Virus record (IMG/VR): IMGVR_UViG_3300042546_000489
Span: 1 to 52,453 of that record
Length of the DNA: 52,453 nucleotides
Strand: one strand, 5' to 3'
DNA from: a virus
Below, one piece after another: positions 4,542-52,453 of this stretch. Under the pieces are notes generated by a model that was given only the letters and a program-made list of their open reading frames with translations, had not been told where the DNA came from and did not search any database. Positions within the stretch are counted from its first letter, which is position 1; every line of letters starts with the position of its first letter. The translations under genes and the position numbers were made by a program.

Positions 4542-5912
4542 GTGGACAAGATCAAGCAGCTTCTCGACGAGCTCGCCCAGGTCGTCGCCGAGATGGAAGC
4601 GATGTCCGAGGCTCCCGCCGAGGGCGACGCCCCCGCGATGGACGCGGAGGAGGAGTCGTCGCTTCGCTCGCTGTCCGAGCGTGCCGACAAGCTCCGCAGC
4701 CAGATCGAGCTGCTGCGTGCCATCGAGGCGAAGAACCTCGAACTGCGTGCCGTGCTGGAGCGTGGTGCTCCCGCCAAGGCGATCGAGAAGGCTGCTGCCG
4801 AGGAGGCTCCCGTGGAGAAGCGAACCGTCCCCGCGATCCCCGTTAGCCACGGACCGCTCAAGGCGTTCCGCAGCGCCGAGTCAGCGTACCGCGCTGGCAT
4901 GCACCTGAGGGGCTACGTGTTCGGCGACGCCGAGGCTCGTCGGTGGTGCGTCGATCACGGCGTCGAGAGCCGCGCCCAGGCGGGCGGCGTCAACTCGCTC
5001 GGTGGTGTGCTGACCAGCCCCGAGCTCAGCAACGAGATCATCCGGCTCGTCGAGGAGTACGGCGTGTTCCCGCAGTACGCTCGCCGGGTGCCGATGTCGA
5101 GCGACACCCTCAACATCGCCCGTCGCACCGGTGGGCTCGCCGCCCGTCCGGTCGGTGAGAACGCCGAGGTTCTCGCGAGCGACGTGACGTTCGACAACGT
5201 CGAGCTCGTCGCGAAGATCTGGGGCGTGGCGAATCGCGTCCCGAACTCGCTGCTCGAAGACTCGGTCATCGACCTCGCCGACCTCATGGCCGTCGAGACG
5301 GCTCAAGCGTTCGCCGAGGCCGTCGATAATTCGGCGTTCGGTCCTGCCGACGGCGAGAGCACCTACCACGGCGTGGTCAGCATCACGAAGAAGATCGTCA
5401 AGGCTGCTCACTCGGCGTCGGTCGTCACCACGACCAACGGCACCGAGGACACCTACGGCGAACTGACCATGAAAAACTTCACCGACATGGTGGCGAAGCT
5501 GCCCACCTATGCTCGGCGGAACGCCCGGTTCTACATCTCCCCGTCCGGCTGGGGCGCTGCGATGCTCAGGCTCGCGATGCTCCCCGGTGGTGCGAGCGGC
5601 CCTGGCGGCAACTCGTCCAGCGACGTGGCCGCCGGGTTCGGTGAGCGGTTCCTCGGATACCCTGTCGTGCTCGTCTCGGCGATGCACTCCAGCCTCGACG
5701 ACAGCAGCGGCGAGGTGGCCTGCCTCTTCGGCGACCTCTCGCAGGCCGCCGTCTACGGCGAGCGTCGGGCGATCCAGATCCGCACGGCGTCCGAGCGGTA
5801 CATCGAGTACGACCAGACCCTCACGTTCGCCACGACCCGCAACGCGATCGTCGTGCATGACGTGGGCTCAACGAGCAAGGCTGGCCCGGTCGTGGCTCTC
5901 AAGTTCGGCTGA
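4542..5912 (+). CDS. HK97-fold major capsid protein
   Basis: Main shell protein, 456 aa, matching the HK97 major capsid family (PF05065). Residues 1-90 are a charged coiled coil (MDKIKQLLDELAQVVAEMEA), typical of the scaffolding delta domain; the upstream protease probably cuts near residues 90-110 (KRTVPAIPVSHGPLKAFRSA). The body contains characteristic segments such as GGVLTSPELSNEIIRLVEEY, VELVAKIWGVANRVPNSLLE and the C-terminal YDQTLTFATTRNAIVVHDVG. The GTG start is chosen because AAGGAGA sits 7 bases upstream (4528-4534). The order protease, capsid, connectors is the standard one. Confidence 0.93.
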   Translation: MDKIKQLLDELAQVVAEMEAMSEAPAEGDAPAMDAEEESSLRSLSERADKLRSQIELLRAIEAKNLELRAVLERGAPAKAIEKAAAEEAPVEKRTVPAIPVSHGPLKAFRSAESAYRAGMHLRGYVFGDAEARRWCVDHGVESRAQAGGVNSLGGVLTSPELSNEIIRLVEEYGVFPQYARRVPMSSDTLNIARRTGGLAARPVGENAEVLASDVTFDNVELVAKIWGVANRVPNSLLEDSVIDLADLMAVETAQAFAEAVDNSAFGPADGESTYHGVVSITKKIVKAAHSASVVTTTNGTEDTYGELTMKNFTDMVAKLPTYARRNARFYISPSGWGAAMLRLAMLPGGASGPGGNSSSDVAAGFGERFLGYPVVLVSAMHSSLDDSSGEVACLFGDLSQAAVYGERRAIQIRTASERYIEYDQTLTFATTRNAIVVHDVGSTSKAGPVVALKFG

Positions 5913-5952: not shown

Positions 5953-6402
5953 GTGAACCATCTCGAAGCCACGAAGTCCGTCGTCGGCCACACCGAGAAC
6001 CTGACGGCGGCGCAGACCCACACGCTGGTGATCGACCGTCTCGGCTACGAGTACGTGTCGCTCGACGTTGCCCAGGAGCCGTGGACGAACGCGGGTTTCA
6101 CCTCGCAGGCGTCCTTCACGGTGCTGAAGCTCAGCGAGTCCGACAACAACTCGGACTACAGCGACGTGACGGCGTTCGTCGGTGGCGGCACCGGCGGCTT
6201 CACGCTGCCCACGCCGACCGCCACCGCTGGCGACGTGGTCGTGCGGATGGACGTGGATTGCCGTGGGAAAAAGCGGTACTTGAAGTTGACCGCGACTCCC
6301 TACACGACCGGCACCGTCTACACGGTCGCCCGGCTCGGCAAGGGCAACGACGGCCCGGTCAGCGCCTCGTCGAAGAACGTCAACGCCACGGTCAGCGGCT
6401 GA
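5953..6402 (+). CDS. Beta-rich protein after capsid; possible decoration protein
   Basis: A 149-aa protein made largely of short alternating hydrophobic and Ser/Thr/Gly stretches, with no membrane segment and a compact C-terminal block ending ASSKNVNATVSG. I do not recognise a family. Its position straight after the major capsid gene, with GAGGAG about 10 bases before the ATG, and its size suggest a capsid cement or vertex protein. A terminator follows, so the capsid block probably ends here, which would let the structural genes be expressed at high level. The role is inferred from position only. Confidence 0.6.
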   Translation: MNHLEATKSVVGHTENLTAAQTHTLVIDRLGYEYVSLDVAQEPWTNAGFTSQASFTVLKLSESDNNSDYSDVTAFVGGGTGGFTLPTPTATAGDVVVRMDVDCRGKKRYLKLTATPYTTGTVYTVARLGKGNDGPVSASSKNVNATVSG

Positions 6403-6478: not shown

Positions 6479-7213
6479 GTGATCGTTCAAGTCGGCGATA
6501 CGTCGGTCGAAGTGCGTGCCGAGGCGGTGCTGTCGGCCCCGAGGTTTGGACCCTTGACGAACGTCTTCGCGTTCATCGAGAGCCTCATGCCGCTGCACAT
6601 TCGCCCGACGCTCGGGCAGGGTGCCTACTGGTCGATGGCCCTCACCCGGATGCTTGAGATGTTCTCGGATAAGACCGAGTACATCATCACGCTGGACTAC
6701 GACACGTTCGTCACACAGTCCGATGTCGAGCGGCTCTTCGCTCTGGCGATGACGTGCCAGTGCGACGCTCTCGCCCCGATCCAGGCGAAACGCGAGGACG
6801 GTCGTCCGATGCTCACGCTCCTCGACACGATGGACGCCCCGCCCGCCGACGGCAAAACCGAACTGCCGCTGTCGTGGTTTGCCGAGCCGGTGCAGCAGGT
6901 CGATACGGCGCACTTCGGCTGCACGATCATCTCCACCAGGGCGCTGCGGCGAACGCTCAAGCCGTGGTTTCACTCGAAGCCAGACGCCGAAGGCGGCTGG
7001 GGCGACGGGCGGGTCGATGATGATCTGTGGTTCTGGTCGCAGTTCAAGAAGTCGGGCAACCGCCTATTCATCACGCCTCGCGTCGTGATCGGTCACGGCG
7101 AGTATGTGATCTCGTGGCCGAGCAAGGATTTCTCCGGTCCGGTGTTCCAGCACACGACGAACTGGCAGCGGACGAAGCGACCGCCAGAAACTGCATGGAG
7201 GGTCGGCGAATGA
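6479..7213 (+). CDS. GT-A-like glycosyltransferase within the head gene block
   Basis: A 244-aa protein with a glycosyltransferase-like layout. The central segment EYIITLDYDTFVTQSDVERL contains the acidic DxD-type site used by GT-A enzymes to hold a metal and nucleotide sugar. A later GWGDGRVDDDLWFWSQFKKS segment resembles the acceptor-side region of such proteins. The GTG start has GGAGGGTGA about 6 bases upstream. It lies between capsid and connector genes, and its product could glycosylate virion proteins as they assemble; donor and acceptor are unknown. Its end overlaps the next gene (ATGA). Confidence 0.7.
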   Translation: MIVQVGDTSVEVRAEAVLSAPRFGPLTNVFAFIESLMPLHIRPTLGQGAYWSMALTRMLEMFSDKTEYIITLDYDTFVTQSDVERLFALAMTCQCDALAPIQAKREDGRPMLTLLDTMDAPPADGKTELPLSWFAEPVQQVDTAHFGCTIISTRALRRTLKPWFHSKPDAEGGWGDGRVDDDLWFWSQFKKSGNRLFITPRVVIGHGEYVISWPSKDFSGPVFQHTTNWQRTKRPPETAWRVGE

Positions 7214-33580: not shown

Positions 33581-34372
33581 ATGCGACTCGTGGCGACTCT
33601 CATCGCCGTGTCGGCCCTCGCGGCATCCGCCGCCACGATTGACGAGTCGAAGGGCGACGGCCGCTACCTCGACTACGGTGCGACGTTCTCTGGCTACGTC
33701 GTGCGGGTCGTCGGCAACAACGCCGAAGGCGTGCCGCTCGCTGGTTCTGGCACGCTCATCTCGCCGCACTGGGTGCTCACGGCGGCACACGTGCCGCACG
33801 AGATGACGGCGGTGACCGTCGTTATCGGCGGCGAGCGTCTCGCGTGCGACCGCGTCGTGCGGCATCCCGAGTGGGAGGGCATCCACGGGTGGCACGACAT
33901 CGCCCTGGTGCGGCTCGGGCGGCATCGGCACGCCGACGTGTATCCACGGCTCGCTGACGGCACCGAGCGGCTCGGGAGCGTCGCCGCCGCCGCTGGGTAC
34001 GGGATGACAGGCACGCTCACACGCGGGCTCACGGGCGGCGACCAGCGGCTGCGGGCGGGGACGTGCGTCCTCGGGTCGATCGAGCACGGCGTGTATGTCT
34101 GCCCGATTCGCAGGACGCCCGACGCTGGGCCGCTCCCGGCGTGCATCGCACCTGGCGACTCGGGTGGCCCGCTCTGGGCGACGGCGATCGACGGCTCGAC
34201 GAGGATTGTGGGCGTGAACTCGTACGTGGCCCGCGTCGGCGGGAAGACGAAGTACGTCCTCGGCGAGGAGTCGGGTCACACGCGCGTGGTGCTCTACCTC
34301 GATTGGATTCGCAGCGTGACCGGCGAACTTGACTCGCCATGCACGATGCCTGAATGCCAACCGCCACGCTGA
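33581..34372 (+). CDS. Secreted trypsin-like serine protease
   Basis: A 263-aa protein. Residues 1-18 form a Sec signal peptide (MRLVATLIAVSALAASA). The chymotrypsin-fold triad is complete: His70 in SPHWVLTAAHV, Asp106 in WHDIALVRL and Ser194 in CIAPGDSGGPLW. Several cysteines could form disulfides in the envelope. S1 proteases are rare in phages and usually of cellular origin. No ribosome site is clear; a TGCC/GGCA dyad overlaps the start region. A natural role in remodelling a proteinaceous envelope, or as a lysogenic-conversion protein, is inferred. Confidence 0.88.
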   Translation: MRLVATLIAVSALAASAATIDESKGDGRYLDYGATFSGYVVRVVGNNAEGVPLAGSGTLISPHWVLTAAHVPHEMTAVTVVIGGERLACDRVVRHPEWEGIHGWHDIALVRLGRHRHADVYPRLADGTERLGSVAAAAGYGMTGTLTRGLTGGDQRLRAGTCVLGSIEHGVYVCPIRRTPDAGPLPACIAPGDSGGPLWATAIDGSTRIVGVNSYVARVGGKTKYVLGEESGHTRVVLYLDWIRSVTGELDSPCTMPECQPPR

Positions 34373-34575: not shown

Positions 34576-34970
34576 CCATCACGCTGTCCATCCCCGGCGA
34601 TCCGGTGCCGCAACCGCGCCCGCGAGTGTCAACGCAGGGCGGGTTCGCTCGCGCGTACGTACCGAAGAGCCATCCAGTTCACGCCTACCGACAGGCGATC
34701 GCATTAGCGGCAAGCGTCGCCGGGCTCCGCGAGCAGGAGAAACCAGTCAGCGTCGTCATCGACGCGGTGTTCGCACGACCGAAATCTCACATGAACAAGG
34801 CAGGCGTGAAGCCGACCGCACCGGCACTGCCGCGACCCGACGTAGACAACCTGGGCAAGGCGGTCCTCGACGCATTGCAGGACGTGATGGGAGACGACAC
34901 GCACGTCGCACGGCTCGTCGTCGAGAAATCGTGGGGCACCGAAGGACGCACGACGGTGCGGATCACGTGA
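34572..34970 (+). CDS. rusA: RusA-type Holliday junction resolvase
   Basis: A 132-aa resolvase (PF05866). The N-terminus (TITLSIPGDPVPQPRPRVST) and the signature PRPDVDNLGKAVLDALQDVM with DDTHVARL, bearing catalytic Asp residues, are clear. It cuts four-way junctions so that branched DNA can be packaged. The GTG start makes a GTGA overlap with the previous stop, and its own end overlaps the next glycosyltransferase gene. Confidence 0.9.
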   Translation: MTITLSIPGDPVPQPRPRVSTQGGFARAYVPKSHPVHAYRQAIALAASVAGLREQEKPVSVVIDAVFARPKSHMNKAGVKPTAPALPRPDVDNLGKAVLDALQDVMGDDTHVARLVVEKSWGTEGRTTVRIT

Positions 34971-35563
34971 GCGTCGCGATCTTCACGAGCGCGGGTGTCG
35001 GCACGCCGTGGGCAGAGCTCACGGTGGCGAACCGTCTCGCGTACTGCGTGCGGCACGACTACACGATGGTGTGGCGGTGCGAGGCGTACTCGCAGGCGTT
35101 GTCGAACTTCTGGCGGATCGGGCAACTGCTCGAACACCATGACCTCGTGTGGACGCTGGACGCCGACTGCGTGATCACGAACCTGACGACCCGGATCGAG
35201 GACGTGCCCGATCTCGGGCCGCACATGACGATCTGCGAGGAGGGTATCGGCGCTCACGCCCTGGTGAACGGCGGGTCGATCGTGTGGCGTGCAACTCAAG
35301 GCACGCTGTCGCTGCTCGCCGACATCGTCGCTGCAGAGGACGAGTGGCGCTCGATGGAGTGGAACGTCCAGCAGTGGCTGATGAAGCACCGCGAGCGGCT
35401 AGCGGATCGCATGACGATCGCGCCGAAACGGGCTTTCAACTCTGTGCATCTCGGGCAGACGAACCACTGGCAGCACGGCGACCTGGTTTATCACCCGTGC
35501 GGTAATCCGCCCGCCATCCGATGCGACTTGATCCGCGAGTACCTGGGGCGGGTGGTCACATGA
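34967..35563 (+). CDS. GT-A-like glycosyltransferase (GT34-type appearance)
   Basis: A 198-aa protein. FWRIGQLLEHHDLVWTLDAD contains the DxD metal site (DAD) with the upstream helix typical of GMA12/MNN10-type galactosyl/mannosyl transferases. Acceptor-side EWNVQQWLMKHRERL and a closing His-rich segment follow. It opens a run of five overlapping genes (34967-38358), four glycosyltransferases and one methyltransferase. The GTG start overlaps the RusA stop. Donor and acceptor are unknown; GDP-fucose made by the phage is one candidate donor. Confidence 0.75.
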   Translation: MSVAIFTSAGVGTPWAELTVANRLAYCVRHDYTMVWRCEAYSQALSNFWRIGQLLEHHDLVWTLDADCVITNLTTRIEDVPDLGPHMTICEEGIGAHALVNGGSIVWRATQGTLSLLADIVAAEDEWRSMEWNVQQWLMKHRERLADRMTIAPKRAFNSVHLGQTNHWQHGDLVYHPCGNPPAIRCDLIREYLGRVVT

Positions 35564-36129
35564 GCTACCAGTTCACGCACGACTGGTTCTCGATGCGCAC
35601 GAACGCATGGCGAGAGCACGTGCTGCCTCGCCTGCCGCACCCGTGCCGATGGCTGGAGGTCGGCTCGCACGAGGGTCGCTCGGCGTGCTGGATGCTCGAT
35701 GAGGCGCTGAAGCCCGGCGACGTGATCACGTGCGTGGATACGTGGGGCGGGCCGTTCGACGGGTACTCGTCGGAGAATCCCGAGGCGCGGTTCGAAGCGA
35801 ACCTCGCGGGACGTGCCGAGAAGTTCAAGGGACGCTCGCACGTATTCTTCGCCCGTGCTCTCGCCGAGCATCGGATGTTCGACGGCGTCTACATCGACGG
35901 CGGGCACGAGGGCCGCACGGTGCTCGAAGACACCGTCCTCGCGTGGCGTCTGCTCAAAGTCGGCGCGGTCATCGTGTGGGACGACTACGAATGGCGCGAC
36001 CCGCACCCGAACCGGCAGCACCTGCCGACGCCGAAGCCCGCGATCGATGCGTTCCTCTCGCTCTACGGTCAATACCTCGACGTGCTGCATCGTGAGTGGC
36101 AAGTCATCGCCGTGAAGCGGGGCGAGTAA
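35560..36129 (+). CDS. Class I SAM-dependent methyltransferase
   Basis: A 189-aa protein with motif I in RWLEVGSHEGRSACWMLDEA, the acidic ribose contact in VITCVDTWGG, and FDGVYIDGGHEGRTVLEDTV followed by VIVWDDYEW, in line with the Methyltransf_24 type that modifies sugars or small molecules. No DNA-methylase motifs (PC or DPPY) are present. Embedded between glycosyltransferases, it probably O-methylates a glycan. It overlaps neighbours by four and one bases. Confidence 0.78.
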   Translation: MSYQFTHDWFSMRTNAWREHVLPRLPHPCRWLEVGSHEGRSACWMLDEALKPGDVITCVDTWGGPFDGYSSENPEARFEANLAGRAEKFKGRSHVFFARALAEHRMFDGVYIDGGHEGRTVLEDTVLAWRLLKVGAVIVWDDYEWRDPHPNRQHLPTPKPAIDAFLSLYGQYLDVLHREWQVIAVKRGE

Positions 36130-36734
36130 TGGACATCTACGCGATCACGACGAGCGTCAACTACGCGGACTACCTGGCGATTTGCCTCAACTGCCTCGCC
36201 GGTCAGGTCACGGGCGTCTGCGTTGTCACGGAGACGAACGACGCGAGCATCGCTGTCGCCGAGAAAGCCGAGGCGACGGCGCTGATCTATGACGGGTGGC
36301 ACGCCGACGATGCAGCGTTCAATAAGGCGGGTGCGATCCGGTTCGCCCAGGAGCACCTTCACGCCGCGTACCCGGAGGCGTGGTATCTGCTGATCGACGC
36401 CGACGTGATGGTGCCGACGAACGCACGCCAGATCATCGAGCAGGACGCGACGAATCCCGAGACGCTCTACGGCGCGAGGCGGGTCGATTTCCACACGCCC
36501 GAGCGGCTCATGGACGGCAAGCCGAACAAGGCATACGCCTCGATGTTCGCCGGATTCTTTCAGCTGTACCGGCGGCACGTGCTGTACCCGGAGTGGTCAC
36601 GCACGGCCGAGCTCTGCGACCTGTCGTTCGCGAAGCAGTTCGCGTCGTGCGTCGTGCTGCCGATGACGGTCGGTCACTGCGGCGTCGAGGCGGTCAACTG
36701 GGAGGGGCGGCGTTCGCCGCTCTGGAAATGCTGA
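36129..36734 (+). CDS. GT-A-like glycosyltransferase
   Basis: A 201-aa protein. DIYAITTSVNYADYLAICL at the N-terminus and EAWYLLIDADVMVPTNARQI (DAD motif) fit a GT-A glycosyltransferase. Later FAGFFQLYRRHVLYPEWSR and VGHCGVEAVNWEGR are acceptor-side features. TAATG couples it to the methyltransferase and its end overlaps the next gene by seven bases. Confidence 0.72.
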   Translation: MDIYAITTSVNYADYLAICLNCLAGQVTGVCVVTETNDASIAVAEKAEATALIYDGWHADDAAFNKAGAIRFAQEHLHAAYPEAWYLLIDADVMVPTNARQIIEQDATNPETLYGARRVDFHTPERLMDGKPNKAYASMFAGFFQLYRRHVLYPEWSRTAELCDLSFAKQFASCVVLPMTVGHCGVEAVNWEGRRSPLWKC

Positions 36735-37501
36735 CCATCTTCACGCTCGTGCTCAACGGGCAGCCGTACATCGAGCAGCACCTCGCGACGTTTCGCCAGC
36801 TCACGATCCCGTGGCAGTGGCGGATCGTCGAGGGCGTCGCGGCACCGACGCACTGCACCGCGTGGTGTCAGACGATGCCGGACAAGTGGCACCGGGACTT
36901 CGTCAGCGTGGACGGTACGCACGAGTACGTGCGGGCGGTGAACAACACGCCGAACGTGACCTGCTCGTGGCGTCACTCACCGTGGGACGGCAAGATCGCG
37001 ATGATCGCACGCGCCCTCGAAGGCGTCGAAGGCGGCGTCGTCATGCAGGTGGACAGCGACGAGCTCTGGCAGGCGTGGCAGTTGGAGCGGATCTACTGGC
37101 TGATGATGCAGCAGCCGGTGGCGACCGCCGCCCGGTTCGCGTGCCGCTACTGGGTCGGGCCGTCGAAGCTCCTGACGAGCACGACGGGCTGGGCACGCGG
37201 CGACCTCGAATGGCTGCGAGCGTGGCGTTGGGGACCGGGCATGCGGTTCCTCCGACACGAGCCGCCGATCGTCACGGGGTTTGACCGGTGCGTCACGATC
37301 GAATCAACGCAGGCGGCCGGGCTCGTGTTCGATCACTTCGCGTACACGACCGAGCAGCAGATTGCCATGAAGCAGGACTACTACGGGTACACGGGGCTGA
37401 CCGATGCGTGGCATCGGCTCCAGGCGACGAGCGGGCCTGTGAATCTTCAAGAGTTCTTTCCGTTCGCCATCGGGGCGACAGCGGATGACGTGGGGATATG
37501 A
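36728..37501 (+). CDS. GT2-like glycosyltransferase
   Basis: A 257-aa protein beginning MLTIFTLVLNGQPYIEQHLA, a GT2-like start, with GGVVMQVDSDELWQAWQLER carrying the DSD metal site. The C-terminal half has many aromatic residues (DHFAYTTEQQIAMKQDYYGY). Part of the glycosyltransferase run; substrates unknown. Confidence 0.72.
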   Translation: MLTIFTLVLNGQPYIEQHLATFRQLTIPWQWRIVEGVAAPTHCTAWCQTMPDKWHRDFVSVDGTHEYVRAVNNTPNVTCSWRHSPWDGKIAMIARALEGVEGGVVMQVDSDELWQAWQLERIYWLMMQQPVATAARFACRYWVGPSKLLTSTTGWARGDLEWLRAWRWGPGMRFLRHEPPIVTGFDRCVTIESTQAAGLVFDHFAYTTEQQIAMKQDYYGYTGLTDAWHRLQATSGPVNLQEFFPFAIGATADDVGI

Positions 37502-38358
37502 CGACCTACACCATCACCGCCTCCGACATCGAGGCTCACCGCCCCGACGTGCTGCTCCCGCCCGACGAGGAGTTCGTGGAGCAGTACGCCGAAGCCGTGC
37601 GTGTCGGGCGAGAGGTCGCAGCCGATCGCACGGCCTCGCTGGTTGCCATCTGCCGCAATGCCATGCCCTGGCTGCCGCAGACGCTCGGGCTCGTAGAGGA
37701 GACGGGCGCGATGTTCCGCTCGTGGTCGGCGTACATCTTCGAGAACGACTCGTCCGACGAGACGAAGGACGCGCTCGCGGCGTGGGCCGATGGCACGCAG
37801 AGGCAAGTGTCGCTGAACATCAACCACCGGCCGCACCTCTCGCATACGATCGACACCGAGCGGACGGTCGCACTCGCGGAGTACCGCACGCAGTGCCAGC
37901 GGTGGGTGCGGCACGGCGAGCCGTGCGACTATGTCGTCGTGTTCGACTCCGATGCCTGGGGCGGCTGGAGCGTTGACGGCGTCGCGACGAGCGTGGGACA
38001 TATCGAGGCGGCTCGCGGGGCGTCGTGCATGGCGAGCTATTCGTGGGCGGAGCACAACGGGTACGCGATCCACTACGACGCATTCGCGGCACGGTGGAAT
38101 CACTGGCGGCGTCGCGATCAAACGTGGTTCCATCACTGGCACCCGCCTGTCGGCTCGCTGCCGCTGCGATTCAACAGCGCCTTCGGGCAACTGGCGCTCT
38201 ACCGGAGGGACGCCTACCTCGCCATGCGGTACAGCGGCGAGGACTGCGAGCACGTGTGTGCTCATCGCACGATGCCGGGGCGGTTGTATCTCAACCCGTC
38301 GAGCCGGTGCGTCTCCTACTGGACACCACGCGATGCCGGGCAACACGGCGACAATTGA
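37498..38358 (+). CDS. Glycosyltransferase-like protein
   Basis: A 286-aa protein. SLVAICRNAMPWLPQTLGLV and SAYIFENDSSDETKDALAAW resemble the donor-binding half of GT2-type enzymes, and CDYVVVFDSDAWGGWSVDG holds a DSD site. The C-terminus (GRLYLNPSSRCVSYWTPRD) completes the fold. It closes the run of overlapping sugar-transfer genes. Specific linkage unknown. Confidence 0.7.
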   Translation: MTTYTITASDIEAHRPDVLLPPDEEFVEQYAEAVRVGREVAADRTASLVAICRNAMPWLPQTLGLVEETGAMFRSWSAYIFENDSSDETKDALAAWADGTQRQVSLNINHRPHLSHTIDTERTVALAEYRTQCQRWVRHGEPCDYVVVFDSDAWGGWSVDGVATSVGHIEAARGASCMASYSWAEHNGYAIHYDAFAARWNHWRRRDQTWFHHWHPPVGSLPLRFNSAFGQLALYRRDAYLAMRYSGEDCEHVCAHRTMPGRLYLNPSSRCVSYWTPRDAGQHGDN

Positions 38359-41512: not shown

Positions 41513-41848
41513 ATGGCAGAGTTTTCCCTGCTACCAGGGCAGCTTGCCCTGAAAACACGCCAAGGCGACGAGTTTTCGGCGACCGTCACGCTCTCGCAGG
41601 GCACGGCGGCGTTCAGCCTGACCGGATACACGGTCACGGCGGGCATCACGTCGCTCGTGGACGGCACCAGCGTGGACGACTTTACCTGCTCGGTTGTCTC
41701 GGCGACTGCGGGCACGGTGTCGATCTCCCTGCAAGAGAACGAAACCTCGGCGCTTGCATCGGGTTCGTATGCTTGGTCGTTGCGGTGGATCGCGCCGGGC
41801 GCGGTCACTCGCACCGCACTATCGGGCGTATTGGAGGTGACGCGGTGA
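41513..41848 (+). CDS. Small tail-fibre/baseplate beta domain
   Basis: A 111-aa beta-sandwich-like protein (AEFSLLPGQLALKTRQGDEF; TVTAGITSLVDGTSVDDFTC), similar in layout to N-terminal domains of baseplate/receptor-binding proteins. It leads the receptor-binding block. Coupled to the next gene by a four-base GTGA overlap. Confidence 0.55.
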   Translation: MAEFSLLPGQLALKTRQGDEFSATVTLSQGTAAFSLTGYTVTAGITSLVDGTSVDDFTCSVVSATAGTVSISLQENETSALASGSYAWSLRWIAPGAVTRTALSGVLEVTR

Positions 41849-42129
41849 GCATCACGGCGAGCGTCTCGGGATCACCGATCACGGCGAGCGTGACCGAAAG
41901 CGGCGCGAGCGTCGCAGTGTCGCCCGTGGCGATCTCGGCGACGGTGCTCGCTGGCATCGGGCCGCAGGGACCGGCGGGCGCGACCGGCGAAGGCGGCGGT
42001 GCGACGAGCCTCGCGACGCTGTCCGACGTGGAGATCACCGCTGCCGCCGACGGCGATGTGCTTCGATACAACGGCTCGAAGTGGGCCGACTACGCCGAGA
42101 TTCAACTCACCGATGGGGGAAATTTCTGA
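41845..42129 (+). CDS. Small fibre protein with collagen-like stretch
   Basis: A 94-aa protein. Alternating Ser/Ala/Val repeats at the N-terminus, then GIGPQGPAGATGEGGG, a short collagen-like run that can trimerise, and a closing GDVLRYNGSKWADYAEIQLT motif shared by many tail fibre proteins (the point where a fibre meets its next segment). The GTG start overlaps the previous gene. Probably part of the adhesion apparatus. Confidence 0.6.
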   Translation: MSITASVSGSPITASVTESGASVAVSPVAISATVLAGIGPQGPAGATGEGGGATSLATLSDVEITAAADGDVLRYNGSKWADYAEIQLTDGGNF

Positions 42130-43205
42130 TGCCCAACACAATCCGCATCAAGCGTCGCGCATCGTCCGGTGGTGCCGGAGCGCCCAGCTCGCTGGCGAAC
42201 GCGGAGCTCGCGTTCAACGAGAACTCGAACATCCTCTATTACGGCACAGGAACGGGCGGCGAGTCTGGCTCGGCGACCAGCGTGATTGCGATTGCCGGAT
42301 CGGGCGCGTTCGTGTCGATCACCGAAGTGCGCGCTGCGAACACGGTCCTCGCTGGTCCGACGAGCGGTGCCGCAGCTGCGCCGACGTTCCGGGCGCTGAC
42401 CTCCGCCGACATCCCGTCGCTCTCGGGCGTCTACATCCCGATGACGGGTTCGGCGACGCCGACCGGGACGTACACGTTCAGCGGCACGGTCAACGTCACG
42501 GGTACGTTCCAGGTCGGCTCGACCACCGTCACGTCGAGCGCCGCCGAATTGAACCTCGTAGACGGCTCGATCGCGAACACGGTGGTGAACTCGAAGGCTG
42601 TCATCTACGGCTCGGCCGGTCAGATCGCAGCGACGACGATCACGACCAGCGGCAACGCGACGGTCGGCGGCGATCTCACGGTGACCGGCAACCTGACGGT
42701 CAACGGCACGGTCACGACCGTGAACAGCACAACCGTCACCGTGGACGACAAGAACATCGAGCTCGGGTCGGTCTACTCGCCGACGGACACGACCGCTGAT
42801 GGCGGCGGCATCACACTCAAGGGCTCGACCGACAAGACGATTCTCTGGCTCAACGCGACCGACTCGTGGACATACAACCAGAACATCGAGCTCACCTCGG
42901 GCTACGCCTACCGCATCGACGCCGTGTCAGTGCTGAGCAAGACGACTCTGGGTTCCACGGTCGTGTCGTCTTCGCTCACGAGCGTCGGCACGATCGCCAC
43001 CGGTGTCTGGCAGGGCACAGCCGTCGGCGTCGCCTACGGCGGCACCGGGCTCACGTCCGCACCGCAGGGCTCGGTGCTCGTGGCGAACACGGCGAACACG
43101 TACACCGCGCTTGACGGCGGCGGTACGAACGATGGACTCCTCGCCTACACGGCATCGAGCGACACGATCGCCTGGGCGACGAGCATCGACGGCGGGACTT
43201 TCTGA
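42129..43205 (+). CDS. Tail fibre protein
   Basis: A 358-aa protein. Residues 1-40 (PNTIRIKRRASSGGAGAPSS ... AELAFNENSNILYYG) resemble Mtd-type N-terminal attachment domains and are related to the start of the next gene. The middle is a long Thr/Val/Gly-rich beta fibre (TGTYTFSGTVNVTGTFQVGS; VGGDLTVTGNLTVNGTVTTV). The C-terminus has DGLLAYTASSDTIAWATS. It probably reaches the receptor together with the larger fibre; no depolymerase motif is seen. Confidence 0.75.
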   Translation: MPNTIRIKRRASSGGAGAPSSLANAELAFNENSNILYYGTGTGGESGSATSVIAIAGSGAFVSITEVRAANTVLAGPTSGAAAAPTFRALTSADIPSLSGVYIPMTGSATPTGTYTFSGTVNVTGTFQVGSTTVTSSAAELNLVDGSIANTVVNSKAVIYGSAGQIAATTITTSGNATVGGDLTVTGNLTVNGTVTTVNSTTVTVDDKNIELGSVYSPTDTTADGGGITLKGSTDKTILWLNATDSWTYNQNIELTSGYAYRIDAVSVLSKTTLGSTVVSSSLTSVGTIATGVWQGTAVGVAYGGTGLTSAPQGSVLVANTANTYTALDGGGTNDGLLAYTASSDTIAWATSIDGGTF

Positions 43206-43208
43206 CGT

Positions 43209-45308
43209 ATGCCCACGTATCCAATCCAAATCAAGCGCAGCGGAACGGCAGCATCCGCTCCGTCGTCGCTGGCTCACGGCGAGTTAGCACTGAACTACGC
43301 CGACAAAGTGCTGTATTTCAAGGACGCCTCGAACGTCATCCAGTCGTTCACGTTTCAGTCCTACGCGCTCGCGTCACACACGCACTCGATCTCGGATGTG
43401 ACGGGGCTGCAAACCGCCCTCGACGGCAAGGCGTCGAGCAGCCACACGCATTCGATCTCGGATGTGACCGGATTGCAGGCGGCCCTCGACGGCAAGGCGT
43501 CGTCGTCGCACGCCCACGCCGCCAGCGACATCACCTCCGGCACGCTGGACATCGCCCGCATCGCCAACGACGCCGTCACCTACGCCAAAATCCAAAACGT
43601 CAGTGCCACCGACCGCCTGCTCGGTCGCTCGTCGTCCGGTGCAGGCGACGTGGAGGAGATCACCTGCACGTCGTTCGGTCGTTCCTTGATTTCGTCAGCC
43701 GATGCCGCAGCGGCGCGCACCACGCTCTCGGTGCAGCCGACAGCCAGCCCTGCGTTCACCGGCGCGGCGACGTTCGACAACACCGGCAACGTCGTCCCTC
43801 TGACGATCACAAACGCAGGCACCGCAAACTCGTTCGTCGTCAACGACGCGAGCGGGGATACGACGCCGTTTGTGATTGATGCCGACGGCAACGCGGGCAT
43901 CGGTTACTCCACCCCCAGCGACTACGGCAAACTCGTTGTGAGCGGCGGCACGGCCGCCAACGCTCCGGTCGTCACTATCGAATCGACGGCGTTCAACGCA
44001 TCACAGGGCTGCTCGCTGGACTTCGCTCGCGCTGGGTTCACGCAGAAGGTGCAAGCGAGGCTTGCGACGCAAGACAACGGCGCGTCCGCGTCGAACTTCA
44101 TCATCTACACAAAGGCCGACGGCACCGCTGGTGCTCTGTCTGCACGCCTCACCATCTCCTCCACCGGCGTCGCCACGTTCGCGGGGCAGATCGTCGGGCA
44201 GGCGGGGGCGGCGATCTCTGGTGGTGCTGTCACTGTCACGTCGCCACTGCGACTCACAGGCACCGTCGCTGGCAACAACAGAATGCTGGAGTGGCAGACC
44301 AGCGGAACTACGCGATGGCAGGTGTCGGCCCACTTCAACGCCGAATCTGGAAGCAACGCCGGGTCAGACCTCTACGTGAGTCGATGGTCTGATTCTGGCG
44401 TTTTTCTTGGCACTCCTCTCCAGATTCGACGTGACACTGGAATGGTGACGTGCGAGTCAGGGCTGACCGTGCAAAACAGTCCCGTGACGGTTATTGGGGG
44501 CAGCGTCTCAACGTGCAGCGTGGCACCGAGCGGCGATCCCAATACGGGGCTGTATTTTCCGGCGGCGAACGTCGCGGCGGTGGTGACGGATGGAGTAGAG
44601 CGAGTGCGGGTGGATGCGAGTGGACGAGTAGGCATAGGAGTAGCGCCCGGCAGCACTTCGCCGTACGCACTGACCGTCTACAGAGGCTCCGTCGATTCAG
44701 TCATCATGGCGCAGGGCTTGCTCACCGATTCGCCGTTCAATGGGACCGGCAAGTCTGCGGTGCAACTAGACGTGGACGGAAAAGGCGGGTTCGCGTGGCA
44801 AAACGATGCCAGCGGCGGGACTCGCACGCTCAAACTCCTGAGCAACAGCGGATACGGGGCAGGCGATTCGACGCTGATGACCGTGTCGTCCGGAGGAACA
44901 ATCACCGCATCGCAGGTCTACAGCGACACCGTCGGCGCGACGAACCGCGACCTGTTCGTAGACAGCACCGGCAAGTTCGGCTACGTCTCCTCCATCCGCG
45001 AGTCGAAGACCGACATCGTCACGCTGGACGACGTGTCATGGCTTTCCGCGCTCTCGCCCGTCTCGTACCGCTACCGCAAGAAGAACTCCGACGGCACCTA
45101 CAGCGACGAAGCGGACGGCGTCACCGACTACGGTCTGATCGCGGAGGACGTGGAAGCGGTACGGCCGGAGTTGTGTTTCTACGACCAAGTGGACGGCGAG
45201 CCGCAACTGCGTGGCGTCACGTACAGCAAACTCATCACGCCGATGCTGCGGTACATCCAGCAACTGGAAGCACGCATCGCCGCACTAGAGGAGCGACTCA
45301 ATGGCTGA
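43209..45308 (+). CDS. Receptor-binding fibre with S74 intramolecular chaperone
   Basis: A 699-aa fibre. The N-terminal attachment domain (PIQIKRSGTAASAPSSLAHG) is followed by two 22-residue HTHSISDVTGLQ repeats (57-100), beta-helical regions, and a C-terminal peptidase S74/endosialidase chaperone domain: SIRESKTDIVTLDDVSWLSA with the Ser/Lys autocleavage dyad near residues 594-602, YGLIAEDVEAVRPE, and a final coiled coil (MLRYIQQLEARIAALEERL). The chaperone folds the trimer and is then cut off. Its end overlaps the next gene by eight bases. Confidence 0.87.
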   Translation: MPTYPIQIKRSGTAASAPSSLAHGELALNYADKVLYFKDASNVIQSFTFQSYALASHTHSISDVTGLQTALDGKASSSHTHSISDVTGLQAALDGKASSSHAHAASDITSGTLDIARIANDAVTYAKIQNVSATDRLLGRSSSGAGDVEEITCTSFGRSLISSADAAAARTTLSVQPTASPAFTGAATFDNTGNVVPLTITNAGTANSFVVNDASGDTTPFVIDADGNAGIGYSTPSDYGKLVVSGGTAANAPVVTIESTAFNASQGCSLDFARAGFTQKVQARLATQDNGASASNFIIYTKADGTAGALSARLTISSTGVATFAGQIVGQAGAAISGGAVTVTSPLRLTGTVAGNNRMLEWQTSGTTRWQVSAHFNAESGSNAGSDLYVSRWSDSGVFLGTPLQIRRDTGMVTCESGLTVQNSPVTVIGGSVSTCSVAPSGDPNTGLYFPAANVAAVVTDGVERVRVDASGRVGIGVAPGSTSPYALTVYRGSVDSVIMAQGLLTDSPFNGTGKSAVQLDVDGKGGFAWQNDASGGTRTLKLLSNSGYGAGDSTLMTVSSGGTITASQVYSDTVGATNRDLFVDSTGKFGYVSSIRESKTDIVTLDDVSWLSALSPVSYRYRKKNSDGTYSDEADGVTDYGLIAEDVEAVRPELCFYDQVDGEPQLRGVTYSKLITPMLRYIQQLEARIAALEERLNG
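43377..43508 (+). repeat. Two tandem 66-bp repeats in the fibre gene
   Basis: Each encodes HTHSISDVTGLQ(T/A)ALDGKASSS; the copies differ at a few bases. A partial third unit (HAHAASDIT) follows. Variation in copy number would change fibre length. Confidence 0.8.
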
Positions 45309-45613: not shown

Positions 45614-46549
45614 ATGGTCGTCCTGTCGTCGATCCTGCGTCGCGAAGAACCGCAGCGCGAGCGACGCGAGCGGGTGCCGCTACCCGGCGAGCTCGCCGTC
45701 GTCTGCGTGTTCTGGAATCCTGCCGGGTGGCGATCGCTGCGGCGGAACTACCTCCGGTTCCTCCACGAGATGCGGTGGTGGGGCGTGCCGACGTTCAACG
45801 TCGAGCTCGCCTACGAAGGGCAGGCGTTCACGCGCGACGACGCGTGGCTCACGGTCCGAGGCGGCGACCGAAACGTCCTGTGGCAGAAAGAGCGCCTCAT
45901 CAACCTCGCAGTCGAACGCCTGCCCGACCGCTTCGACAAGGTGGCATGGATAGACGCCGATATGGTCTTCCTCGACCACCAGTGGCCCGAGCGGCTGTGC
46001 CGCACGCTCGAAGAGTGGCCGGTGGTGCAGATGTGGAACGAGTGGCACTGTGCCGGGCCAGACGGGCAGATCGAGAGCAAGAAGTTCTGCGTCGGACATC
46101 GCTGCGAAAGGTATCTCAGCGAACAGAACTGCTGTCCTGGCGGTGCGTGGGCGGCACGACGCGACATCTGGCCGCTCTACGATCGGCACATCGTCGGCAG
46201 CGGCGATTCGATGATGGTCGAGGGATGGACGAACCACCAAGTGAAACGCTGCCTGCGGATCATGAACGAGCCGATGGCGAAGCACTTCCGCGAGTGGAGC
46301 GAGGTGGCGTACGCGAAGGTGAAAGGCGAGATCGCGTGCCTGCCCGGTGACGCGATGCACCTGCACCACGGGAGCCTCGCCGACCGGCAGTATCACTCCC
46401 GGTGGTATCCCGTCGTGAACGGCGGATATGACCCGGCGACGCACGTCGAGGTGGACGAGAACGGTCTGCTTCGATGGACGGACTCGGCACCCGAGACGCT
46501 CGTCGAGTGGGTGCGAGGCTACTTCGCGAGCCGAAACGAGGACGGCTGA
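45614..46549 (+). CDS. GT-A-like glycosyltransferase
   Basis: A 311-aa protein. GELAVVCVFWNPAGWRSLRR starts the donor domain; RFDKVAWIDADMVFLDHQWP carries the DAD metal site; CCPGGAWAARRDIWPLYDRH and EVAYAKVKGEIACLPGDAMH fit the acceptor half, ending in a histidine-rich HLHHGS. It is directly upstream of the GDP-fucose genes, which makes fucosyl transfer an attractive, unproven, role. Confidence 0.75.
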   Translation: MVVLSSILRREEPQRERRERVPLPGELAVVCVFWNPAGWRSLRRNYLRFLHEMRWWGVPTFNVELAYEGQAFTRDDAWLTVRGGDRNVLWQKERLINLAVERLPDRFDKVAWIDADMVFLDHQWPERLCRTLEEWPVVQMWNEWHCAGPDGQIESKKFCVGHRCERYLSEQNCCPGGAWAARRDIWPLYDRHIVGSGDSMMVEGWTNHQVKRCLRIMNEPMAKHFREWSEVAYAKVKGEIACLPGDAMHLHHGSLADRQYHSRWYPVVNGGYDPATHVEVDENGLLRWTDSAPETLVEWVRGYFASRNEDG

Positions 46550-46575
46550 GTTGACACGTGCCGCACCATGCGGGC

Positions 46576-47502
46576 ATGGACATATCAACCAAGCGAATCC
46601 TCGTCACGGGCGGTGCCGGGTTTCTCGGCAAGGCAGTCTGCCGCGTGCTGCACAGTCGCGGATGCCGTCACGTGATCGTGCCTCGCCGGGTCGCGTGCGA
46701 CCTGACCAGCGAGGAGGACACGATCGACCTGTTTGACGACCACCGGCCCGAAGTCGTTCTGCACCTCGCGGCCGAAGTCGGCGGCATCGGGGCGAACATG
46801 GCGACGCCGGGAAGGTTTACCTACGCGAACCTCGCGATGGGGCTGCACGTGATCGAGCAGTGCCGACGGTTCGAGGTCGAGAAGGTCGTCGTCGTCGGCA
46901 CGGTGTGCAGCTACCCGCTCGATCCGCCCGTGCCGTTCGTCGAATCGGACTTGTGGAACGGCTACCCCGAACCAACGAACGCCGGATACGGCGTGGCGAA
47001 GCGTGCGGTCTACGAACTACTCAAGCAGTACAACAAGCAATATTCGCTCCCCGGTGCCGTTGTGATTCCGACAAACCTGTACGGCCCGCACGACAACTTC
47101 GACCCGGTGTCTTCGCATGTGATCCCGGCGATGATCCGGCGATTCTGCCGCACCGATCCGGTGACGCTCTGGGGGACGGGATGTGCGTCGCGAGAGTTCC
47201 TCCACGTGGACGACGCTGCCGAAGGCATCGTGCGAGCAGCGGAGAAGGTGACGACGCCCGATCCGATCAATCTCGGTGGTGGCGGCGAGGTGCAGATGAG
47301 GAAGCTCGCCGAGATGATCGCGGGCGAGTGCGGCTACATGGGCACGATCCGCTGGGACTCCTCGAAGCCAGACGGACAGCCGAGGCGTGCGGTCGATGCG
47401 ACCCGAGCCCGCGAGATTCTCGGGTGGACGCCGAGAGTCAGCCTACAGAACGGCATCGCCGAGACGGTCTCGTGGTGGAGGGATCAATGCGTGTCGCTCT
47501 GA
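46576..47502 (+). CDS. fcl: GDP-L-fucose synthase
   Basis: A 308-aa short-chain dehydrogenase that turns GDP-4-keto-6-deoxy-mannose into GDP-L-fucose using NADPH. The dinucleotide motif [26 protein letters not shown] (with the catalytic Cys), NAGYGVAK (Tyr-Lys pair) and [20 protein letters not shown] (with the His) follow the E. coli enzyme closely. One of the Ser positions next to the Cys reads Thr/Val here. ATG 46576 lies six bases after a TTGACAC-N6-CACCATG element. Paired with gmd. Confidence 0.9.
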
Positions 47503-48455
47503 TCACCGGCATCACCGGGCAGGACGGCTCCTATCTCGCTGAGCTCCTGCTCGCGAAGGGCTATATCGTCCACGGCATCGTGCGGCGGTCGAGCACGTTC
47601 GGCACGCAACGAATCGAGCACATCTTCCACCGGCTCAACCTGCACTACGGCGACGTGACCGACGGCGGTGCGATGGCAAGGCTCGTCGCTGAGATCGAGC
47701 CAGACGAGCTCTACAACCTCGCGGCGCAGAGCCACGTGCGGGTGTCGTTCGACCAGCCCGCGTACACGGCGGAAGCGGTCGGGCTCGGAGCGCTCAACGT
47801 CCTCGAAGCAGCCCGCGTCGTGCCGGGATGTCGTGTCTATCAAGCGTCCTCCTCCGAGATGTACGGGCAGGTCGCCGAGACACCCCAGCGGGAGACGACG
47901 CCGTTTCGTCCACGATCACCGTACGGCGTGGCGAAGGTCTACGCTCACTGGATCACGGTGAACTACCGCGAGAGCTACGGGATGCACGCATCGTGCGGCA
48001 TCCTGTTCAATCACGAGAGCCCGAGGCGCGGCGAGACGTTCGTGACCCGCAAGATCACGCGGGCGGCGGCACGCATCGCCAGCGGCATCCACGAGACGCT
48101 GTACCTGGGCAACCTCGACGCCCGGCGGGATTGGGGCCACGCAGCCGACTACGTCGAGGCCATGTGGCTCATGCTGCAACAGGACGAGCCCGACGACTAC
48201 GTCATCGCCACGGGCGAGACGCACAGCGTGCGGGAGTTCTGCGAGCGGGCGTTTGCCCACGTGGGGCTCGACTACCGCGACCACGTCGAGATCGACCCAC
48301 GCTACTACCGACCGGCTGAGGTGGACCTGCTCCAGGGCGACGCGAGCAAGGCACGCAGGCAGTTGGGCTGGGTGCCGAGCGTGACGTTCGAGGGGCTCGT
48401 GGCGGGCATGATGGACGCGGAACTGCAAGCGTTACGGGGACGCGTGGTAGCGTGA
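47487..48455 (+). CDS. gmd: GDP-mannose 4,6-dehydratase
   Basis: A 322-aa enzyme that makes GDP-4-keto-6-deoxy-mannose, the substrate of the upstream gene product. [20 protein letters not shown] binds [40 protein letters not shown] (Tyr/Lys) and [19 protein letters not shown] are signatures of the family. GGAGGGATC precedes the ATG, which overlaps fcl by 16 bases. Only GDP-mannose from the host is needed to complete the pathway. Confidence 0.92.
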
Positions 48456-48991: not shown

Positions 48992-49627
48992 ATGAACATT
49001 CGAAACCGCGTCAAATCGCTCCGTATGGTCCCTGCGAGCGACCTCCGGCCCAATCCGAAGAACTGGCGAACGCACCCGAAAGCCCAGCAGGACGCCCTCC
49101 GGGGCGTGCTGGCCGAGGTCGGGCTGGCCGACGCCTGCCTCGCCCGCGAACTGCCCGACGGCTCCCTCATGCTGATCGACGGCCACCTTCGAGCCGAGAC
49201 GCTTGGCGACGGCGACGTGCCAGTTCTGATCCTCGACGTGACCGAGGCCGAGGCCGACAAGATTCTCGCGACGCTCGACCCGCTCGCTGCGATGGCGGAC
49301 TCCGACGCGGCCAAGTTGGAGGAGTTGCTGCACACGGTCAACACGAGCAGCCAAGCGTTGCAGGAGTTGATCGCGGCGACAGCGTCGCAGGCCGGGCTGT
49401 ACGAAGACCTGAACGCAGAAACGTCAGAAGAAGGCGACGATCCGAGCGACGAAGACGAGGCCGACGATCCGCCGCCGAGTGGCGTTCGCATGGTGCAGTT
49501 GTTCCTCGACGAGTCGAATATCGGCGAGTTCCAAGACGCCTGCACCAAACTTGCCGAGGAGTACGCGACCGAGAACATCACCGACACCGTGATGGAGGCG
49601 GTTCGCCGTGCAAGTGCATCACTGTAA
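48992..49627 (+). CDS. ParB-like nuclease-domain protein
   Basis: A 211-aa protein. VPASDLRPNPKNWRTHPKAQ and ELPDGSLMLIDGHLRAETLG are the conserved ends of a ParB/Srx-type domain. Helical middle and an acidic linker (EEGDDPSDEDEADDPPP) follow, then a C-terminal SGVRMVQLFLDESNIGEFQD domain. In phages, ParB-like proteins recur beside terminases and beside TET/JBP dioxygenases, suggesting sequence-specific DNA handling for modification or packaging. No strong ribosome site is seen; the gene follows a terminator and needs its own promoter. Confidence 0.8.
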   Translation: MNIRNRVKSLRMVPASDLRPNPKNWRTHPKAQQDALRGVLAEVGLADACLARELPDGSLMLIDGHLRAETLGDGDVPVLILDVTEAEADKILATLDPLAAMADSDAAKLEELLHTVNTSSQALQELIAATASQAGLYEDLNAETSEEGDDPSDEDEADDPPPSGVRMVQLFLDESNIGEFQDACTKLAEEYATENITDTVMEAVRRASASL

Positions 49628-50525
49628 GGAGAAGTTCCAAGCCGACTACCTCGCAGGAACCAAGCTCGACGAGTCGCACTACGACCACCTGCTTGGCGGC
49701 GACGAACCGTGTGACGTGTTCAAGCCTGACGGAACGCCTCTCGTGAAGTACCGCCCGCGTTGGTTCAGCGAGGGGCTGTGCAAATCGGTTATGCCTGCGT
49801 GCCGCAAGGCGGCGACGAAAACGAACAACCGGGGTATGGCCGCTGGTGACATCAAGGAAGTTGAACTCGGAACGCAAAGACCGATTGCGGCGCTCACCAA
49901 AACGCACTTCCGCACTATCAAGGAAGACGGCACGATCAGCAACACGACGCGAGGCGGCGAGGTAGAGAGCGGCATCATCGGCTACTTCGACCGGAGCGCC
50001 AGGTTCCCGTTCTGCCGCCAGACCTCATTCCTCATCTCGCAGGCCGCGTCGTGGAAGCGTTTCCTCCCGTACATCGAACGAGCCGACGAAGGTTTCCGCG
50101 AGCTCATGCCCGACCGATGGGCGGTGCAGCGCGGGTACGCCAGCCGCACCGCGTCGGATTGGGTGATCCCGCAAAGCACGTTCACGACGGTCACGGTCAA
50201 CAAGAACTTCCAGACCGCGACCCATAAAGACGCTGGCGACCTCGCATCTGGCTTCGGCGTGATGTCGTGCCTGCGGAACGACAAGTACGACGGAGCGTAT
50301 CTGGTGTTCCCGGCGTACCGCGTTGCGGTGAACTTCGGACACGGCTGCCTCTGCCTCGCAGATGTCCATGAGTGGCACAGCAACACGCCGTTCACAAGAA
50401 TGCGGCTCGGCTACGAACGCATCACGCTCGTTTTCTACTACCGCGAGAACATGATTCACTGCAAGGAAGCGAAGGCGGAAGTCGAGTGGGCGAAGAACAG
50501 AAAAAGAGGGGAGCCACTGGCGTAA
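49608..50525 (+). CDS. TET/JBP-like 2-oxoglutarate/Fe(II) dioxygenase
   Basis: A 305-aa protein. The C-terminal half has the iron- and cofactor-binding pattern of TET/JBP base dioxygenases: NKNFQTATHKDAGDLASGFG with His206 and Asp208 (HxD), DGAYLVFPAYRVAVNFGHGC, ADVHEWHSNTPF with the distal His (254 or 257), and Arg271 in YERITLVFYYREN for 2-oxoglutarate. Such enzymes hydroxylate methyl groups of 5-methylcytosine or thymine in DNA; phage versions act in hypermodification. The GTG start has GGAGG 9 bases upstream; it overlaps the ParB-like gene by 20 bases and the next gene by one. Confidence 0.85.
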   Translation: MQVHHCKEKFQADYLAGTKLDESHYDHLLGGDEPCDVFKPDGTPLVKYRPRWFSEGLCKSVMPACRKAATKTNNRGMAAGDIKEVELGTQRPIAALTKTHFRTIKEDGTISNTTRGGEVESGIIGYFDRSARFPFCRQTSFLISQAASWKRFLPYIERADEGFRELMPDRWAVQRGYASRTASDWVIPQSTFTTVTVNKNFQTATHKDAGDLASGFGVMSCLRNDKYDGAYLVFPAYRVAVNFGHGCLCLADVHEWHSNTPFTRMRLGYERITLVFYYRENMIHCKEAKAEVEWAKNRKRGEPLA

Positions 50526-51469
50526 TGGCTGTATGCCTTTTCTATCTCGCGGAACCGAAGTACGGCGGATGGCCAACCTACACGTCGCATCTCTACAGAG
50601 GACTCGCGGAAATAGGCAAACGACCTGTCCTGTTCAAGATAGGAAACACAACTGACGGCAGGATGCGACCGTACGGCAGGGGGATTGAATACACGAACGT
50701 CACGCTAAGCGATGCAGTTTCAATGGCGCGTGGTAACCCCTGCTTCATCACCGCAGTCGGGAAGGGCTACTACGACGCCGCTTGCAGTTTGATGCTGTCA
50801 GGTGCATCCGTTTGCGTGCACGACCCAACGGAGCTGAAAGAACCTTTCGCATCGGCACTCCCAGCCGCAAAGGTGATTGTGATCCGTGAGTCGATGCTTT
50901 CGCACCTACCTCGCGCGAAGTTCATCCTTCATCCTTACGCGCCTCGCGGGCAGCAAGGAACCAAAGAAAAACTAGCGTGCGCGATATCAAGAATCGACCA
51001 TGACAAAAACACAGCCATCATCGCATCTGCGAACGAACGGCTAAAAGAGCCCGTTCAACTTTACGGCGCGATCAACCGCATCTACTCATACTTCACGCTA
51101 GACGCGAAGCACCCCGGCTGGGAGAAGAACTACGTCTTAGCACCGAGCGCGAGCAGCCTCTGGGCGTGCCAGAAAATCGCTTGCGGATACAAGAAAGTGG
51201 TCGATCTGTCCGTCATCAAGAAAGACGGCAGAGGAACGCAGTATACGTTTCTTGAGGCCGTGGACGCAGGCTGCTCGCTGGTTTTGCACAAAGCGTGGGA
51301 ACCGACTGGGTTGCTTTCGCAGTTGAGTCGCACCGTGCAAGATGCAGACGGCTTGGTCGAAGAGCTTTCGAGGCCGTGCAAGTTCGACAAGAAAGCCGCC
51401 AGCCGATTGTTGGCACACCACTGCCACAAAAAAATAGCGGCACAAACCTGCGAAGCGATAGGAGCCTGA
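50525..51469 (+). CDS. GT-B-like glycosyltransferase linked to the dioxygenase
   Basis: A 314-aa protein. AVCLFYLAEPKYGGWPTYTS is a GT4/GT-B-like opening with a Gly-rich loop, and GRGTQYTFLEAVDAGCSLVL near the end is the donor-site helix region of that fold. TAATG couples it to the dioxygenase; the likely natural role is adding a sugar to the hydroxylated base. Base use is clearly different: 50941-51060 is about 51% G+C versus 68% at 47701-47760, suggesting recent transfer. The fold is inferred from these two regions. Confidence 0.65.
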   Translation: MAVCLFYLAEPKYGGWPTYTSHLYRGLAEIGKRPVLFKIGNTTDGRMRPYGRGIEYTNVTLSDAVSMARGNPCFITAVGKGYYDAACSLMLSGASVCVHDPTELKEPFASALPAAKVIVIRESMLSHLPRAKFILHPYAPRGQQGTKEKLACAISRIDHDKNTAIIASANERLKEPVQLYGAINRIYSYFTLDAKHPGWEKNYVLAPSASSLWACQKIACGYKKVVDLSVIKKDGRGTQYTFLEAVDAGCSLVLHKAWEPTGLLSQLSRTVQDADGLVEELSRPCKFDKKAASRLLAHHCHKKIAAQTCEAIGA

Positions 51470-51998: not shown

Positions 51999-52453
51999 CT
52001 ACTACTTCGATCCAGAGGCTGCGCAACACGTCGTCGGCTTTTTCGAGAAGTGGCTGCGACACTCGAAGGGCAAGCACGCAGGCGAGCCGTTCGCGTTGCT
52101 CGATTGGCAGACCGCGATGCTCGGCGAGTTGTTCGGCTGGAAGCGGCTCGACGACGGATCTCGCCGCTACCGGATGGCGTACATCTCGACCGCAAAGAAG
52201 CAGGGCAAGTCCACGTTGCTTGCTGGCATCGGCCTGTACCTTCTTGCCTTCGACGGTGAGATCGGGGCGGAAATCTTCGGGTGCGGGGCCGACCGCGAGC
52301 AGGCGTCGATCGTGTTTCGCGAGGCTGCGAGCATGGTGCGGGCGTCGCCCAAGCTCTCCCGCGTGCTGGAAGTCATCGACTCCCGCCGCACGATCGCTTA
52401 CCGCAACGCGTCGTCGTTCTACCGAGTTCTGTCTGCCGACGCGTTCCGGGCCG
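51931..52453 (+). CDS. terL: Terminase large subunit, N-terminal part (runs off the window)
   Basis: This frame starts PKKKQTRLPITLRRDAERQG after the ATG and continues FEKWLRHSKGKHAGEPFALL, DWQTAMLGELFGWKRLDDGS to the Walker A. It corresponds to residues 1 to about 174 and supplies the 81 residues missing from the copy at the window start. From 52136 it repeats the left end with three amino-acid differences. The pair is best read as one gene split by the way the circle was opened. Confidence 0.92.
   Translation, partial: MPKKKQTRLPITLRRDAERQGLDYYFDPEAAQHVVGFFEKWLRHSKGKHAGEPFALLDWQTAMLGELFGWKRLDDGSRRYRMAYISTAKKQGKSTLLAGIGLYLLAFDGEIGAEIFGCGADREQASIVFREAASMVRASPKLSRVLEVIDSRRTIAYRNASSFYRVLSADAFRA
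52136..52453. repeat. Right copy of the terminal direct repeat
   Basis: Partner of 1-318, about 94% identical and indel-free. Removing one copy gives a circular map of 52,135 bp with terL intact. Confidence 0.9.

Follow-up and report, generated by a model that had tools for sequence, protein, structure and literature searches.

An exchangeable glycosyltransferase and methyltransferase module in a small environmental phage, with the virion as candidate target

Main finding

The virus record IMGVR_UViG_3300042546_000489 (IMG/VR), analysed over its full 52,453 nucleotides and referred to below as the window, carries on its plus strand five co-directional genes (positions 34967–38358) that encode four glycosyltransferases (GTs) and one class I methyltransferase. 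The glycan module is real and coherent and the system is of a kind already known; what appears new is the swappable arrangement of its genes in a small, uncultured phage. The target can be judged from gene context: on balance, with confidence slightly better than even, we favour the reading that the enzymes act on the phage's own virion, the likeliest acceptor being the major capsid protein or else a decoration protein of the head, and that the block forms the variable part of the pathway.

The last 318 bases of the window (52136–52453) are 94.3% identical to positions 1–318, inside the terminase gene. The contig thus appears to wrap round, giving a genome of about 52.1 kb that is probably complete though classed as linear.

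Composition of the block and identity of its enzymes

The block opens with GT1, a GT34-like glycosyltransferase of 198 aa with a GTG start (34967–35563), which overlaps the upstream RusA-like gene by 4 bases. It is followed by the methyltransferase (35560–36129), GT3 (36129–36734), GT4 (36728–37501) and GT5 (37498–38358), with consecutive overlaps of 4, 1, 7 and 4 bases. Both gene calls and overlaps agree with the initial annotation, which had described four GTs and a methyltransferase in five genes overlapping by 1–7 bases. Across all five genes, 18 pairwise comparisons with relatives gave codon-level dN/dS values of 0.06–0.25, indicating purifying selection; we therefore consider the genes real and selected.

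The DxD signatures were as originally listed: DAD in GT1 and GT3, DSD in GT4 and GT5, DYD in GT7 (6479–7213) and DAD in GT6 (45614–46549). Since DxD is also present in 19 of the 47 other window proteins tested, the motif alone does not go beyond chance and was rejected as proof of GT identity. GT-A identity of the four block GTs is supported by structure models for GT3 and GT5, by the Pfam GT34 match for GT1 and through a relative for GT4.

GT1 passes PF05637 (GT34) with an E-value of 6.5e-8 and 33 bits against a cut-off of 23; D67 of its DAD motif is invariant in five sequences, and D65 is replaced by Gly in both distant relatives aligned. The methyltransferase lies above the PF13578 (Methyltransf_24) cut-off (7e-19), and its substrate is presumably a sugar. 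For GT3, the family search returned nothing better than E 0.19, and its sequence matched GmaR weakly (E 0.044) among solved structures. Its AlphaFold2 model, of moderate confidence (pLDDT 75.4), resembles GT-A enzymes, with 6p61 (Z 16.1) and the WrtF fucosyltransferase (Z 15.6) as the best solved matches, and the DAD motif is invariant in 10/10 sequences. GT4 is GT2-like: it matches PF00535 (GT2) weakly itself, its relative L118 exceeds the PF00535 cut-off, and DSD is invariant in 9/9.

GT5 gave a confident AlphaFold2 model (pLDDT 91.3, 36 sequences). Yeast Mnn9 and human COLGALT1 were the best solved matches (both Z 17.9, rmsd 3.4–3.5 over 224–230 residues), with further GT-A enzymes behind them, and D150 and D152 are invariant in 36/36 sequences. 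With 20.3 bits against PF13704 (Glyco_tranf_2_4), GT5 stays below the curated cut-off of 27.5 and is consequently assigned by fold only; by sequence, COLGALT1 was matched at E 1. In neither of the two modelled proteins, GT3 and GT5, was the proposed GT-A fold absent. Among viral structures, GT5 comes closest to a glycosyltransferase of the giant virus Marseillevirus LCMAC102 (E 8.7e-22, 22% identity), and every phage protein ranks far behind. The COLGALT1 match might hint at a collagen-type acceptor for GT5, and one short G-x-y stretch occurs in 41773–42129.

When GT3, GT4, GT5, GT6 and GT7 were compared by sequence with solved structures, matches were weak or lacking, and the NCBIfam search gave a single weak match. 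No strong similarity appeared in profile comparison among GT1, GT3, GT4 and GT5, in keeping with the earlier view that they are not simple duplicates, and the pairs GT6–GT3, GT7–GT5 and GT7–GT3 were all without significance. The initial annotation had counted six GT-A-like enzymes: GT1, GT3, GT4 and GT5 are well supported and GT7 is probable, while GT6 is included by its motif only.

Genes upstream of GT5 are exchanged around a constant enzyme

A search with GT5 returned 51 viral loci. Its downstream neighbours recur: the families of the genes at 39080, 39673 and 38773 were found in 44, 43 and 39, respectively, of 51 gene-call sets (window included). The stretch between RusA and GT5 was compared in the 45 of 52 loci (the 51 plus the window) that have at least 2.5 kb upstream of GT5, and it behaves as an exchange site, with 17 family sets in the 45 loci when gene order is ignored. 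The window's complete upstream set occurs in six of the 45, and the same set minus GT1 in five more. These locus counts do not represent independent events, since near-identical loci are included. Inheritance of the block as one unit, a possibility raised earlier, was rejected: GT5 is a syntenic core enzyme, and exchange affects its upstream neighbours.

In the exchange site, at least one GT-like family is present in 45/45 loci and a methyltransferase-like family in 40/45, five loci having no such gene. A stricter count, restricted to GT1, GT3, GT4 and family k11 (which scores below its own Pfam cut-off), gives 34/45, because Pfam recognises none of the representatives of families k14, k53 and k59. 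The methyltransferases include Methyltransf_24 and FkbM types, with families k28 and k108 falling below the Methyltransf_24 cut-off. Two loci carry a B12 radical-SAM gene (k86), the Pfam match having been seen on a relative in L115. In one copy (L014:1356–3098) there is, by eye, an apparent in-frame intein; the relatives in L096, L097 and L114–L116 are 434 aa long. A trypsin-like protease with a hydrophobic N-terminus (33581–34372, PF00089 2.5e-13) also recurs near the block, its family being found in 26 loci.

Block DNA, GT5, GT7 and GT4 had no match in a phage collection searched for cultured relatives; the capsid protein had 16 distant matches there, all below 60% identity. As to the host, three MAG contigs are labelled Alphaproteobacteria, Planctomycetota and Binatia, labels that may reflect misbinning.

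Glycosyltransferase-like families linked to capsid genes

A further GT-like gene, GT7 (6479–7213, plus strand), lies in the capsid operon and belongs to the core of this lineage. It follows the gene of the major capsid protein (4542–5912, plus strand; phrog_10, 2.1e-40), a candidate acceptor. Between the two is a small protein (5953–6402, plus strand) that matches phrog_5707, a family of unknown function, at 1.6e-9; by synteny it may be a decoration protein and a second candidate acceptor. The GT7 family search gave GT2-type matches, all sub-threshold, in 4/11 members, and the Asp residues of its DxD are invariant in 11/11. GT7 is a probable rather than a firmly established GT-A enzyme. In all 62 evaluable loci, meaning those of 80 fetched loci with enough upstream sequence, the major capsid gene is followed by GT7 at a distance of no more than 1.5 kb. 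The same position was seen in 7/7 further records, where GT7 identity falls to 36–37%. Among the 28 GT5-bearing records tested, GT7 was found in 20, and in 13/14 of those of at least 40 kb.

The search with GT4 revealed relatives, about 50% identical, in another group of phages. They lie inside a GT/methyltransferase cassette whose possible members are a large GT2-type protein, methyltransferases, a Glyco_transf_7-type glycosyltransferase and a B12 radical-SAM enzyme. A head-protein family lies directly upstream of this cassette in 14 of the 21 loci whose first cassette gene is complete, the head match having been tested on one family member (L119, major head protein). Of the other seven, two lack any gene upstream, and in five that gene is a different one or is cut off. 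That both GT7 and the GT4 family are linked to capsid genes is what makes the virion the likeliest target.

GT6 and a GDP-fucose pathway

GT6 (45614–46549, plus strand) is GT-like by its DAD motif and position only, no family match having been obtained; D114 and D116 are invariant in 7/7 sequences. Beside it the genome encodes both enzymes of a GDP-L-fucose pathway. One is a GDP-L-fucose synthase (46558–47502, plus strand), whose best solved matches are GDP-L-fucose synthases (2.7e-68), and the other a GDP-mannose 4,6-dehydratase (GMD; 47490–48455, plus strand, start approximate), supported by PF16363 and a solved GDP-D-mannose 4,6-dehydratase (1.8e-128). In 26 of 33 GT6 loci the synthase comes next after GT6; of the remaining seven, six break off before that point and L259 has no synthase. 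GMD was detected in only 7 of the 28 GT5 records tested. GDP-fucose is therefore not the general donor, and other relatives must use another one or that of the host.

Alternative targets

The block itself leaves its target undecided, and three other acceptors were weighed against the virion. As the phage carries a TET-like dioxygenase, we tested DNA glycosylation: the dioxygenase would make 5-hydroxymethylcytosine, to which the GTs would add a sugar chain, shielding the DNA from restriction. The gene (49608–50525; Tet_JBP, PF12851, 3.9e-20) lies beside a ParB-like gene (48992–49627), which overlaps it, and an ORF at 50522–51469 that has no family match and looks, by eye, like a GT-B candidate; virus-encoded GTs that hypermodify DNA have been published (Pyle et al. 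2024, as cited in PMC12619734). The presence of the TET-like gene in the same genome counts against the virion reading and leaves room for DNA. However, TET was found in 6 of 51 GT5 records and in none of the other 45 (many records being fragments), and in 2/14 of those of at least 40 kb. A C5-methyltransferase (PF00145) was not found in the window and occurs in 2/28 records, though a host enzyme could substitute, and a thymidylate-synthase-type enzyme was absent from all 14 records searched. In the related genome G012, moreover, the block is 100% identical to that of the window, against 27% for TET. The rare co-occurrence and the missing C5-methyltransferase and thymidylate-synthase-type enzyme speak against a main role in TET-linked DNA glycosylation, which we consider improbable. 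The ParB-like gene, the TET-like gene and the GT-B-like ORF (48992–51469) stand just before the small terminase gene, as a set seen in few relatives.

Tail fibres were considered because the fibre genes (42081–45308) are flanked by the block and GT6, and GT5 with its exchange site lies about 30 kb from the head genes and near the fibre genes, which counts against a head target; glycans on mycobacteriophage tail tubes have also been reported (PMC12619734). Still, it is head genes, not the fibre, that are linked to GT7 and to the GT4-family cassette. In G012 the fibre is 54% identical, whereas block and capsid gene are both 100% identical, so in this one genome the block stayed with the head genes rather than with fibre or TET. 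The fibre thus appears the least probable acceptor of those considered. The fibre gene at 43209–45308 has been replaced independently of the GT block (54% against 100% in G012).

Phage GTs often modify the host surface, as in Gtr clusters. The GTs could accordingly alter a host surface polysaccharide in the course of infection or lysogeny, so that receptors change and other phages are kept out, and an integrase family match (phrog_1) suggests that the phage may be temperate. Yet the GtrA flippase was found in 0/14 records, no polymerase or flippase was noticed near the block, the block genes sit with late genes, and hydropathy shows the block proteins to be soluble apart from one borderline stretch in GT3. 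With no GtrA in 14 records and little membrane anchoring, serotype conversion of the Gtr type is disfavoured, and we judge host-surface modification about as doubtful as a DNA target.

A proposed virion glycan

The gene content is best read as specifying a methyl-modified glycan built in several steps, close to the multi-sugar, methyl-capped glycan suggested at first. If the virion is the acceptor, the chain may be begun or anchored by the two enzymes that stay constant in this lineage, GT5 and the capsid-operon enzyme GT7. Further sugars would come from the exchangeable genes that lie between RusA and GT5, as would methylation in most loci, the order of sugars and the methyl position being conjectural. 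In the window, GMD and GDP-fucose synthase would supply GDP-L-fucose to one or more of the GTs. As no enzyme has a clear membrane anchor, the likely site of action is the cytosol, on virion proteins soon after their synthesis. Besides the TET-like gene and the distance from the head genes, points against the virion reading are the five of 45 loci that show no methyltransferase-like gene, the scarcity of GMD among relatives, and the less than firm identity of GT6 and GT7 as GTs.

A more specific version, which we put forward tentatively and consider rather unlikely as a whole, is a capsid ‘serotype’ system. A core sugar would be laid on the head by the two constant GTs, of which one is encoded in the capsid operon, and the exchangeable cassette of GT, methyltransferase and sometimes B12 radical-SAM genes would give a strain-specific outer glycan, much like bacterial O-antigen loci.

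If virion glycosylation is right, small environmental phages spend five or more genes on a strain-variable virion glycan, like giant algal viruses, which raises the question of what selects glycan diversity outside animal immunity: grazing, surface adsorption, stability or host lectins. In addition, GT and methyltransferase specificities that are still uncharacterised can be drawn from the exchange site, and the fixed place of GT7 beside the capsid gene points to the first candidate acceptors.

Comparison with known systems

In mycobacteriophages, as outlined in reports citing Freeman et al. 2023 (PMC12691614, PMC12619734, PMC13313380), phage GTs place glycans on capsid and tail-tube subunits, and Rhodococcus phages also have a methyltransferase. 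The present phage is likewise a tailed phage with its own GTs and a methyltransferase, its virion glycan being predicted. What sets it apart from the mycobacteriophage system as described there is the exchange site next to a constant GT, the placing of another GT in the capsid operon, and the addition of a GDP-fucose pathway.

TET-dependent DNA glycosylation clusters of phages (Pyle et al. 2024, as summarized in PMC12619734) similarly combine a TET-like enzyme and GTs in one genome. Unlike the clusters in that summary, block and TET are here inherited separately, and the window yielded no C5-methyltransferase.

The chlorovirus PBCV-1 uses viral GMD and GDP-fucose synthase, soluble GTs and methyltransferases to make a methylated glycan on its major capsid protein, according to PMC5408694 and PMC9614988. 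Virus-made GDP-fucose, several soluble GTs and a methyltransferase are shared with our phage, whose glycan is deduced from genes. PBCV-1 is a giant algal virus with an N-glycan, and the two gene sets are unrelated as far as tested, the GT3 model matching the PBCV-1 glycosyltransferase 2p72 as a distant fold at rank 49.
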